Origin: an uncultured Chloroflexota bacterium
Lineage (GTDB): Bacteria > Chloroflexota > Anaerolineae > Anaerolineales > Anaerolineaceae
Assembly (NCBI GenBank): GCA_902786265.1
Contig: CADACE010000017.1
Coordinates: forward strand, 1 to 64,000
DNA length: 64,000 bases
Reading direction: 5' to 3'
In this document: positions 4,840-61,549 of the stretch, piece after piece
Numbering within the stretch: the stretch's first letter is position 1
Layout: every line of letters begins with the position of its first letter
The notes under the pieces: model-generated
The model's database searches: none
What the model was told of the DNA's origin: nothing
What the model saw: the letters and a program-made list of their open reading frames with translations, nothing else
Translations under genes and position numbers: made by a program

Positions 4840-6333
4840 ATGCAGTTTAATTCTGTAGATTTTTTGATATTTTTCCCCTTTGTTATAGCAGTTTACTTCG
4901 TTATACCTAAAAAGCTTCGCATGATATGGCTTCTGGCTGCCAGCTACTATTTTTATATGAGCTGGAATGCAAAATATGCATTGTTGATTGGTACTTCTAC
5001 AATCGTAACTTTTTTAAGTGGATTGTTATTATCTTCATTTAAAACAGGAAATATAGAGCAAAAGAAACGATTAACAATGGTTGTTTGTATCGTTGTTAAT
5101 CTGGGAATATTAGCAATTACTAAGTACGCTAATTTCGCAATAATATCAATTAATATGCTTCTTAGAACCCTGAAAATTTCTACTATAGCGCATAGATTTG
5201 ATATTTTGCTGCCGGTAGGTATTTCATTTTATACATTCCAGGCTTTGGGATATATGATAGATGTTTACCGAGGTGATGTGGAAGCTGAAAGAAATTTTGT
5301 CAGATATGCTCTGTTTGTTTCTTTTTTCCCGCAGCTGGTTGCAGGACCTATTGAAAGATCGAAAAACCTATTAAATCAGATGCGTCACATTGAAGACATT
5401 CGGTTATGGAATGCGAGAAGAGTTACTTCCGGTGCAATCCTGATGGTTTGGGGATTTTTTATGAAAATGGTAATAGCAGACAGAGTTTCTATCCTGGTAG
5501 ATACCGTTTTCAATAATTACAGAATGTATGGAAGTACTGAATTATTTTTAGCTGCGATAGGATTTACAATTCAGATTTATACGGATTTTGGAAGTTATTC
5601 CATGATTGCTATCGGTGCTGCTAAAATCATGGGCTTTGAACTCATGGAGAATTTTAGTGCGCCATACTTTGCGAAGAATATCAGGGATTTCTGGGGAAGA
5701 TGGCATATTTCCTTAAGTACATGGTTTAGAGATTATCTTTATATACCTTTGGGTGGTAACCGTAAAGGAACCAGACGTAAGTACATGAATACCATGATCG
5801 TGTTTTTGGTAAGTGGGTTGTGGCATGGAGCAAATTGGAGTTATGTTGTATGGGGAGGAATCCATGGATTGTACCAGGTTATCGGAGATGTTTTAAAACC
5901 ATACACAAAAATACTGTTAGAGAAATGTAAAGTAAATACAGAGTGTTTCAGTTGGCGGTTACTTCAGACAATCAAGACATTTTTTCTTGTTACTTTTGCA
6001 TGGATATTCTTCCGTGCGGACAAAATTACGCAAGCATTACGTTTTATAAAGAGGATTTTTGTAAAACCGACGCCATGGATACTCTTCAGTGATGGCTTAT
6101 ATAACCTTGGATTAAATATGACGGAAATGAACATATTGGTTTTTTCCATTGTGATCCTTTTGCTTGTTGATTTAGTTCATGAACTCAAGGGAATGACGTT
6201 GGATGCATTTTTATTTACACAGAATATCTGGTTTGAATGGAGTGTTTTGATAGTTCTTATTCTGATGACTTTTGTTTTTGGAAAATATGGACCAACATTT
6301 GATGCTAAGCAATTCATATATTTTCAATTTTGA
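4840..6333 (+). CDS. MBOAT family O-acyltransferase (AlgI/DltB type)
   Basis: This 497-residue polytopic membrane protein belongs to the MBOAT family as in AlgI, DltB and PatA. Typical segments are VGISFYTFQALGYMIDVYRG, FFPQLVAGPIERS, NIRDFWGRWHISLSTWFRDYLYIPLGG and VSGLWHGANWSYVVWGGIHG. The last contains the family's conserved histidines, including the likely catalytic one. Such proteins pass acyl groups, usually acetyl, across the membrane to a periplasmic or wall-side partner that acylates a polysaccharide or teichoic acid. The next gene, 17 bases away, encodes an SGNH-like protein and is the probable partner. The pair is visibly richer in A and T than its neighbours. Confidence 0.9.
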   Translation: MQFNSVDFLIFFPFVIAVYFVIPKKLRMIWLLAASYYFYMSWNAKYALLIGTSTIVTFLSGLLLSSFKTGNIEQKKRLTMVVCIVVNLGILAITKYANFAIISINMLLRTLKISTIAHRFDILLPVGISFYTFQALGYMIDVYRGDVEAERNFVRYALFVSFFPQLVAGPIERSKNLLNQMRHIEDIRLWNARRVTSGAILMVWGFFMKMVIADRVSILVDTVFNNYRMYGSTELFLAAIGFTIQIYTDFGSYSMIAIGAAKIMGFELMENFSAPYFAKNIRDFWGRWHISLSTWFRDYLYIPLGGNRKGTRRKYMNTMIVFLVSGLWHGANWSYVVWGGIHGLYQVIGDVLKPYTKILLEKCKVNTECFSWRLLQTIKTFFLVTFAWIFFRADKITQALRFIKRIFVKPTPWILFSDGLYNLGLNMTEMNILVFSIVILLLVDLVHELKGMTLDAFLFTQNIWFEWSVLIVLILMTFVFGKYGPTFDAKQFIYFQF

Positions 6334-6350
6334 ATGGAATGTGTAACTAA

Positions 6351-7793
6351 ATGATTAAATCCACTGCAAGAATAATATGTTTTCTGCTTATTTTGGCATT
6401 TTGTTTAGGATATACGAATTCTGTGTTTAAATTTAAATATGGCGATGGCATATATGATGTTACGAAGTTTTACGAGCTTGATGATAACACTGTTGATGTA
6501 TTGTTCTTAGGAAGCAGCCATGCTTTTGAAAACTTTAATACGGGAACGTTATGGGATGAATATGGGATGTCATCGTATGTATTGGCCGGTTCCGTTCAGC
6601 CCATGTGGAATACGTATTATTACCTTAAAGAAGCACTGAAAACACAAAGACCCGGGTTGATTGTATTGGAAGGATATTGCACAATATTGTCAATGGAGTT
6701 TATAGATGACAGCAGAATTATTAAGAATAATTATGGACTGCATTGGTCAAAGGACAAGATAGAATCTTTAAAAATCAGTTCACCACAGGAACGCTGGAGA
6801 GAATTCTTTTTGGAATATACGCAGTATCATACGCGTTATAACGAGTTGACCAGTGAAGACTTTTTAAAAAATCAAGGTAACCCTCTATATACTGCCTGGA
6901 AGGGATTTGGGTGTAATATGGACACCAAGCCATTTATACAAACCGATATTTCGAATGTGGCAGACAGAGCACCGCTTTTTGATAAAACTGAGAAATACTA
7001 TAGGGCAACAATAGAACTTGCATTGGAGAATAATATACCTGTTATTGTAGTGATTTCACCTTATGCAGGAATTAAAGAACAAGATCAACAGATGTTTAAC
7101 ACCGCAAATGATATTGCTGAAGAGTATAATATTCCTTTTTTGAATTGCAATCTGCTAAGTAATGATATAGGCATCGATTGGGCAGTTGATGCTGCTGATC
7201 CTGATCACTTGAATTATAGAGGAAATCAGAAATTCTCAAAATATATAGGACAGTACATAGTTGACAATTACGAAATTCTTGATCATAGAGGAGAGGAAAT
7301 GTATTCATCATGGCAAGATGATGCAAACTATATAAGACAAATGATTTATGACCAGGAATTGACAGAGTGCTCTGAATTATCAGCCATAACGCAGAAGCTT
7401 AAAAATGAGAATTATTGGATTTTTATGTCTCTATCAGGATCATGTAATACAGCGAATACCATGTTTTCTGAATTGTTTGATTCGGTAGGCATACCAAAAA
7501 ATGGAAAAACTGGAATTTGGTTTGCTGCTATGGATGGTGTCCAGTGGGATTCATCCATGGATGGTGGTGAATTTTTCAAGACAACAAATTCCAATGATTT
7601 TCACTTAAAGAGTTCAATGTATGAAAATGGTAATTGTCGTAACGAAATCATTATTGATAATACTGACTATACAAATGTAGTTAGCGGATTAAACATCGTT
7701 ATATTTGATACCATGACAAAGAAGGTTGCTGATAGCATTGGATTTAATGTTTATAATGATTATGCAATAAACCATTGGAAACATTATGAGTAA
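6351..7793 (+). CDS. SGNH-hydrolase-like O-acetylation partner protein
   Basis: The 480-residue protein starts with a signal peptide or signal anchor (residues 6-22) and continues outside the membrane. It has the block I motif of SGNH/GDSL-like proteins, LFLGSSHAFENFN (about residues 51-63, Ser at 55), and a block V-like DPDHLNYRGNQKF with the Asp-x-x-His pair (about 284-287). Proteins of this kind (AlgX, AlgJ, DltD-like) take acyl groups delivered by an MBOAT protein. The tail beyond about residue 310 is not recognised and could bind the target polymer. Adjacency to the MBOAT gene and the shared base composition support a two-gene operon. Confidence 0.75.
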   Translation: MIKSTARIICFLLILAFCLGYTNSVFKFKYGDGIYDVTKFYELDDNTVDVLFLGSSHAFENFNTGTLWDEYGMSSYVLAGSVQPMWNTYYYLKEALKTQRPGLIVLEGYCTILSMEFIDDSRIIKNNYGLHWSKDKIESLKISSPQERWREFFLEYTQYHTRYNELTSEDFLKNQGNPLYTAWKGFGCNMDTKPFIQTDISNVADRAPLFDKTEKYYRATIELALENNIPVIVVISPYAGIKEQDQQMFNTANDIAEEYNIPFLNCNLLSNDIGIDWAVDAADPDHLNYRGNQKFSKYIGQYIVDNYEILDHRGEEMYSSWQDDANYIRQMIYDQELTECSELSAITQKLKNENYWIFMSLSGSCNTANTMFSELFDSVGIPKNGKTGIWFAAMDGVQWDSSMDGGEFFKTTNSNDFHLKSSMYENGNCRNEIIIDNTDYTNVVSGLNIVIFDTMTKKVADSIGFNVYNDYAINHWKHYE

Positions 7794-8052: not shown

Positions 8053-10389
8053 ATGATATATAGAATAAGTTATCGGTTTTTTGTCCTTTTCCTTACCCTC
8101 TTTTCGGCGCTGTTTTTTCTTCCGGCGCGGGCAGAGGATGAGACAGTTTATTACCAGCCTATAACGGATATTTTTCTGGATGTCAAAGAACTTTCCATGA
8201 GCGTCGGAGATCAGGTAACGCTTCCGCTTACCTGGCTTCCGGCTGAAACTCCCGCTGTGTTTTTGAAGTGGTATACAGATGATAAAACGGTCAGCATCGA
8301 TCCCGGGTCTCTCACAGTCACTGCTCTTTCAGCGGGAAAGACCCGCCTGTTGGTGGAAAGCAATTCCGGATTTGCCTGGGATTACTGTGACATCACCGTG
8401 ACCGGAAGCGAAGCCAAAAGTGCCGCGGAGAAAAAGGCCGGAACAGAGCTGGTCACACTGTCTGATTCGGCACGAGAAAAAATCAAGGCAGATACCATCC
8501 TTCACTATCTGGATTTTCTCGAAAGCTCAAGTTTTACTCCGGAAGATTTTGCCGCGCTGTCGGAAAGGCATTATAATCTGACCGCGGTCGTAAGACCGGG
8601 GACAGTCTCCGCTCAAAGCAGACTGGCGGCTTCTCTGGGCATGGAGAAAACACTGGAACTTCCGGATTTTTCCGCCGTCAGTTTGTATGGGACCCTGGGA
8701 CAAATACTGGAATATGCGGAGAACAACGCTGATTTGATTCGGATTTTTGAATTTGAACCGATGACACTGGATGATCCGGCCACTGAGCAGGAATACGGGA
8801 CCACGGCTAAGAGCATGAACCTGAAAGATAATGTAGAGGAATTGACTTCCGTAAGCACAGCCCATGGTCTTGGCTTGAAAGGGGATAATGTTGTTATTGC
8901 CGTTATCGATTCCGGCCTGAATAAAAATCACGAGCAATTCATGGGCAGGGTCATTGATGAATATTGTGCCGGTCTCGCTGACGATGATTGGCATCCATCC
9001 TGTGACGAAGGATCTTCGGAACCGACCAACTCTCGGATCAAAGAGGAATACAATCACGGATCTCATGTAACCGGGATCGCTGCCGGACGCGACGGGATCG
9101 CGCCGAACGCGAAGATCATTTCCATTAATCATTCAGTCGAGTCTTGTGAGGAAAATGAATGTTACCGCGACATTTATTTCAGTATCTGGGAGGTCAGCCA
9201 GTATCTCGCTGACTTACAGAAAAAGTATAAGACAGTGGGAAAGCCGCAGATCGCTGCAGTCAATATCAGCTTCGGTGGTACCATGAAGTCTTTTTCGGAC
9301 AGCTGCGATGAAAAATATGAGGAGTATAAGGAAGCATTTGACATTCTCCTGGCAAACGATATCATCCCTGTCACCGCCAGCGGGAATACCGGATTTGCGG
9401 AAGGTGTCCAGCCCTATGGGTGTGTATCCGGCAGTTTAACTGTCGGCGCGCTCGCGGACAGCCCTGATCCGACGATCCGCGGCACTTCCAGTCATGGCCG
9501 AAGGATCGACATTCTTGCGCCCGGAACGCATATCTGGTCTGCTCTTTTGGTCGATGACGGCAAGGAAGATACGGTCTGTTCGGGGATCAATTGTTATGGC
9601 AGCAAAAACGGCACATCCATGGCGGCTCCGATGGTGACCGGCGCGATCGCCATTCTCAAACAGGCTGATCCGAGCCTGACGGCTTCCGAACTTAAATCTC
9701 TGCTCATCAGCATGTCCACGAAAACAGCGAATTACCGGTTGAAAAACAACTTGTATCCCGCCATGACATTTGCGTATGACAAACCTGTACTGGATTTTTC
9801 GGAAATTGAAAAACACATTTCTCCGGCACCGCGGCCGGAGCCCGATCCTCACTTTTGGCCTTCCGATATGGAAGTCCTTCCCCGCACCGGTTTTTCTGCG
9901 GCGTGTTCGCTTAGCTCGAACACCATGCCAAAGGATCTGAAATATGGATCTCCGGATATGATCCTGGAGATACCTTCCCTCGGTGTCTCATCGGAAATCG
10001 TTGAAGTGCCTGTTTGGGAAAATGAGTACGCGGTCACATGGCTCGGTGATTCTGTGGGCATGCTGGAAGGGTCCGCGCAGCCCGGGAAAGGTACGGTCAT
10101 TCTGGCGGCACATAACCATCTGAACGATACCGAAAGCGGTCCGTTTGCTCTGCTCGGTTCCATGGAAGAGGGAGAGAGAGTTTTCATCCGTGACGGAAAC
10201 AATGACCTTCATACATTTATCGTTTACGCGAATGCGAAAGTTTCTGAAACCGATTTCGAAACAGTTGATCAAATTGCGGCATCTTTTGAAGACACACTGA
10301 TCATGATCACCTGTGAAGACGAAATGATTTCAGGCGGATATGCAAACCGCCGCGTTGTCTTTGCCAAACCGGTGGATAGTAAGAGGTAG
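8053..10389 (+). CDS. Secreted subtilase (S8) fused to a sortase domain
   Basis: The 778-residue protein has four parts. A signal peptide ends at ARA (25-27). A bacterial Ig-like (Big2-type) domain covers about 35-117. An S8 peptidase covers about 265-580, with Asp286 (AVIDSG), His335 (NHGSH), Asn445 and Ser522 (GTSMAAP). A C-terminal sortase domain covers about 630-775, with His687 (AAHNH), Cys754 (LIMITCED) and Arg766 or Arg767. An LPRTG motif (609-613) lies between peptidase and sortase, followed by FSA. All catalytic residues of both enzymes are present. Subtilases cleave proteins; sortases cleave LPxTG-type motifs and join them to amines. A paralogue is at 59060-61549. The gene stands alone; GGGGA precedes the ATG. 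Confidence 0.88.
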   Translation: MIYRISYRFFVLFLTLFSALFFLPARAEDETVYYQPITDIFLDVKELSMSVGDQVTLPLTWLPAETPAVFLKWYTDDKTVSIDPGSLTVTALSAGKTRLLVESNSGFAWDYCDITVTGSEAKSAAEKKAGTELVTLSDSAREKIKADTILHYLDFLESSSFTPEDFAALSERHYNLTAVVRPGTVSAQSRLAASLGMEKTLELPDFSAVSLYGTLGQILEYAENNADLIRIFEFEPMTLDDPATEQEYGTTAKSMNLKDNVEELTSVSTAHGLGLKGDNVVIAVIDSGLNKNHEQFMGRVIDEYCAGLADDDWHPSCDEGSSEPTNSRIKEEYNHGSHVTGIAAGRDGIAPNAKIISINHSVESCEENECYRDIYFSIWEVSQYLADLQKKYKTVGKPQIAAVNISFGGTMKSFSDSCDEKYEEYKEAFDILLANDIIPVTASGNTGFAEGVQPYGCVSGSLTVGALADSPDPTIRGTSSHGRRIDILAPGTHIWSALLVDDGKEDTVCSGINCYGSKNGTSMAAPMVTGAIAILKQADPSLTASELKSLLISMSTKTANYRLKNNLYPAMTFAYDKPVLDFSEIEKHISPAPRPEPDPHFWPSDMEVLPRTGFSAACSLSSNTMPKDLKYGSPDMILEIPSLGVSSEIVEVPVWENEYAVTWLGDSVGMLEGSAQPGKGTVILAAHNHLNDTESGPFALLGSMEEGERVFIRDGNNDLHTFIVYANAKVSETDFETVDQIAASFEDTLIMITCEDEMISGGYANRRVVFAKPVDSKR

Positions 10390-59059: not shown

Positions 59060-61549
59060 TTAATCGGGTAAAGCAAAGATCACCCGGCGGTTGAGGTAGC
59101 CGCCGTCAGGGGATTCATCCTCACAGGTGATCAGAACCATCGAATTTTCTTTTACGTCACCGGCGATCCTTTTGAACCCGTTGGCAGGAACTATTGCGTT
59201 CTGATAAACGTGCCAGGTCTGCATCGTGCCTCTGCTGTCCGTGATCATGATGCTGTCTCCGGCTTCGAGGTCCCGCAAAAGAGCGAACGGTCCGGCTTCG
59301 GTGGTGTTCAGGTGATTATGCCCGGTCAGAACGGTGACACCCTCACCCGGAAAAGCGCTGCCTTCCAGCATGCCGATTGCGCTGCCCAGCCATTCCACCG
59401 GATATTCTCCATCGATGTAAGGAACCGTCACGATATCGGATTCTACATCCAGTTTTGGAAGCTGGATCGTCAGGCGGGTCGGTTTGTATTGTACGCTCAG
59501 CGGCTGTGCGGAGAGTTTCTGCGGATGCAGCGCGGAAAAGCCGGTCTTCGGCATCTGAAAATCGAAATCTTCGATCCAACGACCGGGTTTTACCTGATGA
59601 GAAGCGTAATAAGCGGGGAAATTTGAAAAGTCCAGAACCGGTTTTGTGAACGGGAATATGGTTCCGGTACCGTCATCCGTAGTAAAATTCCAACCATTCG
59701 AATTCCGCCTGTCAGCGGTTTTTGTTGACATTTCCACAAGTATCGTTTTGTATTCCTCGAGCGTTTTTCCGGGAAAAGCTTCCATGATCAGAGCCAAAGC
59801 ACCGCTGACAACCGGGGTAGCCATGGATGTGCCGGTCATCAGACCATAAGTATTTGTGCCGGGTTTTCCGTCATTATCGACTAAATATGCTGACCAGAGC
59901 TGTGTTCCGGGAGCGAGAATATCAACGACAGGGTGGTGATTGGAATAGCAGGCAATGCAGGGTTTTTCCATGTCCGCCAGTGCGCCAATTGCCAGGCTGT
60001 TAGACAGACAGCCCGGTGAATCGACGGCATCATCATAAAATTCGTTGCCGGCAGCGGCTGCGACAAGGATGCCTGCCGCATTCAGATTCTGAATATATTC
60101 ATATTCTTCGGAGCAATCAGCATCATTATCGCAATAATCAGCATATTTTCCGCCGCCAAGGCTTAAATTCAGGATAGATATTGGTTTTCCTTCCTTTTTC
60201 AGCTCATCCTGGATCTCCAGCATCCAGTCGTAAGCAGCATAAATATCATGATTCCACAATGTAACTGTATATCCGGACGGATTGTCCTGCGAAACCGCGT
60301 ACGGGCTGTAAAAATCCGACTGGACCATCACGGAAACAATGTCTGCACCCGGAGCTATGCCGTCTTTCCCCGCAGAGATCCCTGCCACATGCGATCCGTG
60401 ATTGTATTCGTTCAGATCTGCTGCTCCGCCGGGAAAAGCAGAATATGTTTCGCCATAGTTTTCGATGGTTCCGCCTTCACATGAGGAAATGAGATTGTTA
60501 TCGCAGTCATAGCATTCATAAACATCACACTCCTCATCATTCACGTCACAGGGTTCACAGCCTTCGATGGGCTTGCAATTCCAGCTCCAGCTGAAACAGT
60601 TTTCACGGATCACTCTGCCGGCATACTGTTCGTGCTGATTGTTCAGTCCCGTGTCGATAATGGCAATGGTGATTCCTTTGCCGGTATAACCAAGCCTGTG
60701 CATGGTGCTGACGGATGTCAGTTCTTCTACATGCCCCTGCAGCATTGTCGTGTTTTTGCCCTGAACGGTTTTGGACGTCAGGGTGGAAGTTCCTGTTTCC
60801 GGCAGCGGGTCAAAGATATAGATATCATGCCCCTTGAAAATTTGGATCAGGTCTTCATTGTTTTTGACAAATTCAAGGATCTGTGAAAGCGGACCATGCA
60901 GGCTGACCATATGGAGATGCTTCATGGGCCATGCTCTGGTCATTCCCAGCGTCAGAGCACGTTCGCTTTCCGCTTCCTCTGTCCCGGGCAGGACCTTTGC
61001 CATGACCATCATGGACCGGTCCAGAAGATTTTGGAGGGATTCCTCAGTAAAAACAGACTTTTCCAGCAGATCGAGATAGCGGGTGATTTGGGATGCTTTG
61101 ATCTTTGCCCTGTCCTCTGCGGACAAGGTGAGCAGAGATTTTCCTTCCACCATCCCGGAGATGTCCTTTTCCTGAGTCCCGCTGACCGTGATCTCGCAGA
61201 CCGCATAAGCTTCTTTGTCAAAGCTTTCCGCCATGACCCGGGCGGTCCCCGGGGTGAGAGCAGTCACGGTGTTTGTGAGCTGGTTGACCGCGATGACCGT
61301 ATTGTCGGTATTGAACCATGCCAGCCGGGTGACATGCGGATCTTCGGGGTCAAAGCTTACCGAAAAGGTATATTTTTCCCCAACCTCAAGCGTCAGGGAT
61401 GTGACACCCAGGTCAACTCTTCTGATTGGCTGATAAGAGGTTCCTGTGCCTTTTACAGGAGTCTGTGCAAGGACAGATGTTACCGAAAGGAAAAGATACA
61501 AAAATAATGATAAGATAACAACAATGGAATGTTTTGATGATTTTTTCAT
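59060..61549 (-). CDS. Second secreted subtilase (S8) fused to a sortase domain
   Basis: The 829-residue paralogue of the 8053 protein has the same order. A signal peptide ends at VLA (26-28), and an Ig-like (Big2-type) domain covers about 42-125. The S8 peptidase has Asp299 (AIIDTG), His384 (NHGSH) and Ser575 (GTSMATP). The sortase has His744 (LTGHNH), Cys809 (VLITCED) and Arg821 or Arg822. An MPKTG motif (666-670) precedes FSA between the two enzymes. An insertion between Asp and His (about 318-357) holds eight cysteines and is absent from the first copy. AAAAGGAGAG precedes the ATG. It lies 74 bases after the LytTR regulator gene on the same strand, so it may be its co-transcribed target. 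Confidence 0.88.
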   Translation of the reverse strand: MKKSSKHSIVVILSLFLYLFLSVTSVLAQTPVKGTGTSYQPIRRVDLGVTSLTLEVGEKYTFSVSFDPEDPHVTRLAWFNTDNTVIAVNQLTNTVTALTPGTARVMAESFDKEAYAVCEITVSGTQEKDISGMVEGKSLLTLSAEDRAKIKASQITRYLDLLEKSVFTEESLQNLLDRSMMVMAKVLPGTEEAESERALTLGMTRAWPMKHLHMVSLHGPLSQILEFVKNNEDLIQIFKGHDIYIFDPLPETGTSTLTSKTVQGKNTTMLQGHVEELTSVSTMHRLGYTGKGITIAIIDTGLNNQHEQYAGRVIRENCFSWSWNCKPIEGCEPCDVNDEECDVYECYDCDNNLISSCEGGTIENYGETYSAFPGGAADLNEYNHGSHVAGISAGKDGIAPGADIVSVMVQSDFYSPYAVSQDNPSGYTVTLWNHDIYAAYDWMLEIQDELKKEGKPISILNLSLGGGKYADYCDNDADCSEEYEYIQNLNAAGILVAAAAGNEFYDDAVDSPGCLSNSLAIGALADMEKPCIACYSNHHPVVDILAPGTQLWSAYLVDNDGKPGTNTYGLMTGTSMATPVVSGALALIMEAFPGKTLEEYKTILVEMSTKTADRRNSNGWNFTTDDGTGTIFPFTKPVLDFSNFPAYYASHQVKPGRWIEDFDFQMPKTGFSALHPQKLSAQPLSVQYKPTRLTIQLPKLDVESDIVTVPYIDGEYPVEWLGSAIGMLEGSAFPGEGVTVLTGHNHLNTTEAGPFALLRDLEAGDSIMITDSRGTMQTWHVYQNAIVPANGFKRIAGDVKENSMVLITCEDESPDGGYLNRRVIFALPD

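Follow-up and report, generated by a model that had tools for sequence, protein, structure and literature searches.

Why should a secreted protease carry a sortase at the end of its own chain? The question is raised by the gene at 8053-10389 (+) in the window, the whole stretch of 64,000 nucleotides analysed here, for which a first-pass annotation had offered self-anchoring or a coupled cut-and-join chemistry on surface proteins. In usual sortase sorting, one shared membrane enzyme serves many membrane-tethered substrates. We found that in this gut bacterium the substrate motif and the enzyme form one unit, which is carried by unrelated cargos. Two genes of the window have this unit behind a subtilase:

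8053-10389, + strand: whole gene, secreted subtilase with a C-terminal LPxTG-sortase module, 778 aa
8053-8133, + strand: signal peptide, aa 1-27, cleavage likely after ARA (hydropathy scan; cleavage site by eye)
8161-8403, + strand: Big_2-like domain, around aa 37-117 (full-length model, with beta strands at 39-117)
8464-8751, + strand: probable subtilase prodomain, about aa 138-233 (position and model)
8881-9732, + strand: Peptidase_S8 domain, aa 277-560, with D286, H335, N445 and S522 (Pfam)
9877-9891, + strand: LPRTG sortase substrate motif, aa 609-613
9964-10374, + strand: Sortase domain, aa 638-774, with H687, C754 and R766 (Pfam)
59060-61549, - strand: second S8-sortase fusion, 829 aa, about 42% identical to the first (Pfam and alignment)
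59705-60682, - strand: Peptidase_S8 domain of the second fusion, aa 290-615 (Pfam)
59540-59554, - strand: MPKTG of the second fusion, at aa 666-670
59072-59467, - strand: Sortase domain of the second fusion, aa 695-826 (Pfam)

The gene at 8053-10389 is a single unbroken reading frame of 778 aa. The hydropathy scan found one strongly hydrophobic stretch in the protein, aa 5-28, which is the signal peptide, and this agrees with the first-pass annotation, which had seen no other membrane-like segment. The same annotation had proposed an S8 peptidase with Asp286, His335 and Ser522, followed in frame by a sortase domain with His687, Cys754 and Arg766/767, and all these residues proved right. The Pfam matches are far above the cut-offs, both for Peptidase_S8 (aa 277-560, E 6.8e-38, 131 bits against a cut-off of 21.8) and for Sortase (aa 638-774, E 1.4e-17, 64 bits against 26.6). 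In an alignment of 11 homologous S8-sortase proteins, D286, H335, S522 and the oxyanion N445, together with H687, C754 and R766/R767, are invariant. Judged by the family profile and the Asp/His/Ser triad, both of which were found, the subtilase part is an ordinary S8 domain. A Pfam match to Big_2 was obtained in the homologues 59060-61549, L017 and L025, and none in the 8053-10389 protein itself. In the full-length model, a separate alpha/beta domain (aa ~138-233, block pLDDT mostly 70-95) stands directly before S8, and by its position it is probably the subtilase prodomain.

The LPRTG motif (aa 609-613) ends 24 residues upstream of the Pfam sortase domain. The first-pass annotation had mentioned neither this motif nor the second fusion at 59060-61549 (-), nor the other modules across the genome. 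The MPKTG of the second fusion occupies the matching place, and the modules of the two genes fall on different branches of the module tree. The closest relative of the first protein, L033, is 86% identical and shares its architecture (774 aa). Comparison of the two genes gave dN/dS values of 0.28 in S8 and 0.16 in the sortase, indicating purifying selection on both domains; the 27 codons that lead from LPRTG to the sortase domain gave 0.85, with no difference in the LPRTGF codons among them. An assembly or gene-fusion artefact was ruled out, as the fusion recurs in L033, L034, L088, L056 and others and is under purifying selection. Just upstream of the fusion gene, the region 4840-7793 (+) encodes an MBOAT O-acyltransferase and then an exported protein of 480 aa in which Pfam matched nothing, a pair that recalls polymer-acylation pairs.

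The source genome (4.6 Mb, 89% complete) gave 26 sortase matches. Complete C-terminal modules account for twenty of these, and their xPxTG stands 163-184 residues before the end of the protein; another two are partial modules (C8:50531, C60:2730), and the remaining four are stand-alone sortases, namely one class D-like (C41:31010), one class B (C23:52212) and two short secreted proteins (C23:69464, C50:6045). The module consists of LPxTG, a linker of about 20-30 residues and the sortase domain, and it closes unrelated secreted proteins. Proteases among its passengers in the source genome include five subtilases and two enzymes of papain type, one of the latter on a partial module. Other passengers are a calcineurin-like phosphoesterase, a metallo-beta-lactamase fold that carries BspA leucine-rich repeats, Cna_B/FctA domains in three proteins, MBG/InlB repeats, a ubiquitin-like domain and some proteins in which Pfam matched nothing. 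Relatives add a cohesin, an amidase and S41 peptidases, and SdrD_B stalks, DUF11 and Big repeats and a protein kinase were found elsewhere in the order. Many of these passengers are typical LPXTG cargo (Cna_B, FctA, SdrD_B, LRR_5, MBG). Since papain, phosphoesterase, metallo-beta-lactamase-fold, LRR, Cna_B/FctA, SdrD_B, cohesin and kinase proteins all bear the module, the subtilase is just one cargo. In a sortase tree built by a quick method, the S8 passengers are scattered over several places (5 changes), suggesting recombination of cargo with module. The modules lie mostly apart from the stand-alone sortases in this tree, with module C13:141933 and stand-alone L121 as exceptions and a weak deepest branch.

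Some passengers are worth describing one by one. A goat-abomasum Anaerolineaceae protein, L036:3228-5528 (+), has cohesin and Big_2 with the module at its end, suggesting a self-anchored scaffold of cellulosome type. The Ser/Thr protein kinase L161:1052-3439 (+) of genome G004 ends in an LPRTGFAPG-sortase module and may be a receptor-type kinase with the sortase outside. In the 303-aa module protein L028:3556-4464 (-), the passenger is a secreted ubiquitin-like domain (E 5.7e-14). The genes L019:3175-5055 (-) and L022:3562-4674 (-), both cut by contig ends, encode FctA (Spy0128-like isopeptide) and then LPKTG and a sortase, L019 also having Cna_B; the products are possibly pilin-like subunits that could polymerise themselves. 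Partial modules occur in L031:3032-4330 (-), a papain-type protein whose sortase frame is lost before the Cys, and in L027:2691-3080 (+), a frame without the motif, and decay or a frameshift is possible in these cases.

The motif has a near-fixed position in 81 complete modules, where its columns hold L in 71, P in 81, T in 80 and G in 81, one module (L092) having LPAAG. At X, 13 different residues occur; the two columns immediately upstream of the motif carry less than 1 bit. Catalytic His, Cys and Arg are each present in 81/81, so that the catalytic cysteine, on whose conservation in homologues the first-pass reading depended, is invariant. In this alignment, a fixed L-P-T-G with a free X and a fixed Gly past the scissile bond is the pattern that a sortase substrate should show. 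This Gly is no more variable than the catalytic residues, in keeping with cleavage. All four Pro codons, all four Gly codons and three Thr codons are used in the motif; since synonymous codons vary, selection acts on the protein.

A contig collection was scanned with one peptide pattern around the catalytic Cys. It matched almost only Flexilinea and other Anaerolineaceae/Chloroflexi MAGs, several of them labelled goat gut, and also Flexilinea flocculi TC1 and one Lachnospiraceae stand-alone-type protein. Because a single pattern was used, its silence outside Anaerolineaceae is weak, and a survey of 301 genomes drawn across Chloroflexota is the better test. In this survey, matches reaching the motif came from three families (f1, f2 and f12) of the source order, and matches outside the order mostly start past the motif and mostly lie in short frames. 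When loci were read individually, xPxTGF was present in 18/18 modules (L103-L120) and in 0/10 intact sortases from outside the order. By their sequences, motif-bearing modules within Chloroflexota are confirmed only in the source order (Flexilinea, Anaerolineaceae and kin). Profile matches number 1 to 49 per genome in the source genus, Flexilinea, and 21-49 in its five largest genomes (4.0-4.8 Mb, source genome included). A plasmid collection gave one Chloroflexota module (LPQTGFAPG, CP069395.1) and one Streptomyces class F sortase. The Chloroflexota plasmid protein, QRN84582.1, is annotated 'DUF11 domain-containing protein', an example of how annotation conceals the module.

The AlphaFold model of the module (63 sequences) had a mean pLDDT of 91.7, and its Foldseek and VIA matches are sortases. 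Together with Pfam, this bears out the sortase-like C-terminal domain, for which domain search and structure prediction had been suggested as the check. Block pLDDT was 75 for residues 1-10, 87 for residues 11-20 and 70 for residues 21-30, so the motif (residues 13-17) is placed more confidently than its flanks. The top VIA row is SrtE1 5cuw (Z 16.3, rmsd 2.6, 138 aligned), tied with class C rows, and class C and A sortases gave Z values of 14-16. In SrtE1 5cuw, residues 168-170 (AQA) of the enzyme's own linker sit in the active site, residues 171-192 are not visible, and Ala170 contacts Tyr229, a contact which the authors also modelled for P3 of the sorting signal (PMC5148588). The VIA alignment starts on this linker peptide, with model residue 12 on chain residue 168; V12-L13-P14 would therefore take P5-P4-P3, and T16-G17 would be brought to the catalytic cysteine. 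The modelling thus supports a reach of the motif to the module's own groove, and the alignment range implies that LPRTG would lie there in substrate register. The spacing from the motif to the first strand is also similar (19 residues in the module, 22 in SrtE1). AlphaFold may dock LPxTG from having seen sortase complexes. The full-length model (11 sequences) had a mean pLDDT of 64 with a poor linker and sortase half (pLDDT 22-60), and it was left out of the docking inference.

Taken together, the observed architecture, the conserved motif and catalytic residues, the diversity of cargo and the restriction to one lineage make it fairly probable that the module is a portable self-sorting tail, whose sortase cleaves LPxT-G of its own chain and passes the passenger to a cell-wall amine. 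After export, the LPxT-G bond would be attacked by a sortase Cys, either that of the chain itself or that of an adjacent copy. In the window protein, C754 would cut T612-G613 and hold the subtilase as a thioester, a cell-wall amine would take over this passenger and leave the protease covalently on the surface, and the freed tail (Gly-Phe-...-sortase) would be shed. An ordinary LPXTG sorting signal has a hydrophobic segment and a charged tail, whose place the sortase domain would fill here. In this scheme we infer export beyond the signal peptide, the cleavage, the nucleophile, the wall attachment and action in cis rather than in trans. Self-anchoring as the first-pass annotation proposed it becomes the best-supported reading, and a stronger one than could then be known, because the sortase's own LPxTG stands in the same chain.

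Twenty complete modules on unrelated secreted passengers in one genome argue for the self-sorting tail, and so does the lack of conventional signals. The Gram_pos_anchor model (PF00746), which would miss unusual signals, found nothing over its cut-off in the source genome and none in 37 of 41 lineage genomes, and the controls B. subtilis and L. lactis score. Genome G033 of the same order has 14 module-model matches, and conventional signals score above the Gram_pos_anchor cut-off in it too, so the two systems may occur there side by side. Other LPxTGF sites of the source genome (L139-L141, L146, L147, L149) were rejected as sorting signals, being in tiny or implausible frames without a membrane tail. 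The source genome encodes peptidoglycan Mur ligases and two tandem FemAB-type ligases; a peptidoglycan wall carrying an amine bridge is plausible on this evidence, which does not point to a particular nucleophile. Against the self-sorting tail, neither precursor nor enzyme has a membrane anchor, which leaves retention near the wall unexplained, and the same genome has stand-alone sortases; the LPAAG of L092 also speaks against it.

The missing membrane anchor would suit self-release, in which the module cuts LPxT-G, water resolves the thioester and the passenger is shed without any anchoring. Several passengers are hydrolases able to work free in the gut, and the conservation of the motif is equally compatible with this reading, but many others are adhesin-, stalk- or pilin-like and would make little sense if shed, and sortases hydrolyse slowly; we regard self-release as rather unlikely. 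The modelled motif fills the groove, and the same N-terminal segment is aligned with lidded class C sortases and with the SrtE1 linker peptide, as if LPxTG were only a pseudosubstrate that keeps the sortase off, the fusion delivering to the surface an enzyme whose real substrates are other proteins. A lid, however, needs neither an exact LPxTG with a free X nor an invariant Gly, the Gram_pos_anchor search found no external LPXTG substrates in the source genome, and about 20 differently loaded copies would be superfluous for one enzyme function, which makes this account unlikely.

The stand-alone sortases (C41:31010, C23:52212, C23:69464 or C50:6045) could instead cut LPxTG in trans, the fused sortase being only the leaving group or acting elsewhere, but the fused domains retain all catalytic residues (81/81) under purifying selection, and processing of this kind seems quite improbable. 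The other proposal of the first-pass annotation, that the subtilase generates ends and the sortase joins them, draws on the two intact active sites in one chain. It fared badly against the diversity of cargo, since most modules carry no protease and the passengers are of many kinds, and subtilases hydrolyse and form no LPxT thioesters; we consider it highly improbable.

Beyond the self-sorting tail itself, we tentatively propose, as an idea that could fall either way, that the lineage anchors each surface protein by its own single-use transpeptidase, a disposable intein-like C-terminal leaving group replacing the shared membrane sortase, and that the shed Gly-initiated sortase may act in trans, cross-linking or exchanging passengers. 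If the self-sorting tail is true, sorting would proceed without a membrane-retention step, Chloroflexota would have a defined route for anchoring surface proteins, and natural self-processing sortases would be available for protein ligation. Sortases and LPXTG signals are known; neither a natural sortase-LPXTG fusion nor a sortase from Anaerolineae/Flexilinea was reported in the literature searched, with most subscription journals outside it, and as far as it shows, a natural enzyme-substrate fusion used as a multi-copy anchoring tail is undescribed.

With the sortase superfamily (PF04203; nearest classes E, F and C) the module shares the profile, the fold, the His/Cys/Arg triad and the LPxTG motif. 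It differs from a typical membrane sortase, which has an N-terminal anchor and a separate substrate, in having a signal peptide only and in being the C-terminal domain of the substrate itself. None of the NCBIfam class cut-offs (C, D, E, F, GN) was reached (class F 39.3/166 bits, class E 26/160). The class C sortase lid is Asp-Pro-aromatic. As modelled, the module resembles this lid and the SrtE1 linker peptide (5cuw) in that residues ahead of the catalytic domain would occupy the active site of the same protein, but these residues form a full substrate motif, LPxTGF, with no conserved Asp-Pro-aromatic motif in the 81 modules, whereas the lid and linker are not LPxTG (AQA in SrtE1, PMC5148588).

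Engineered self-cleaving sortase fusions, inteins and Hedgehog-type proteins have a domain that processes its own chain and hands on the upstream part via a thioester; the module, by comparison, is natural, multi-copy and of sortase fold, and its single turnover is a proposal only. LPXTG-anchored subtilases depend on a separate sortase. Those of the SGO_0316/0317 family (NF040553) are likewise secreted S8 proteins with LPxTG near the C-terminus, and the 8053-10389 protein scores 23 bits with their profile against a cut-off of 1400. The LPXTG sorting signal (Gram_pos_anchor, PF00746) has in common with the module a C-terminal LPxTG on secreted proteins with similar cargo domains. The hydropathy scan found no hydrophobic segment past LPRTG (aa 609-613); where the ordinary signal continues with a hydrophobic segment and a positive tail, the module has the sortase domain instead.
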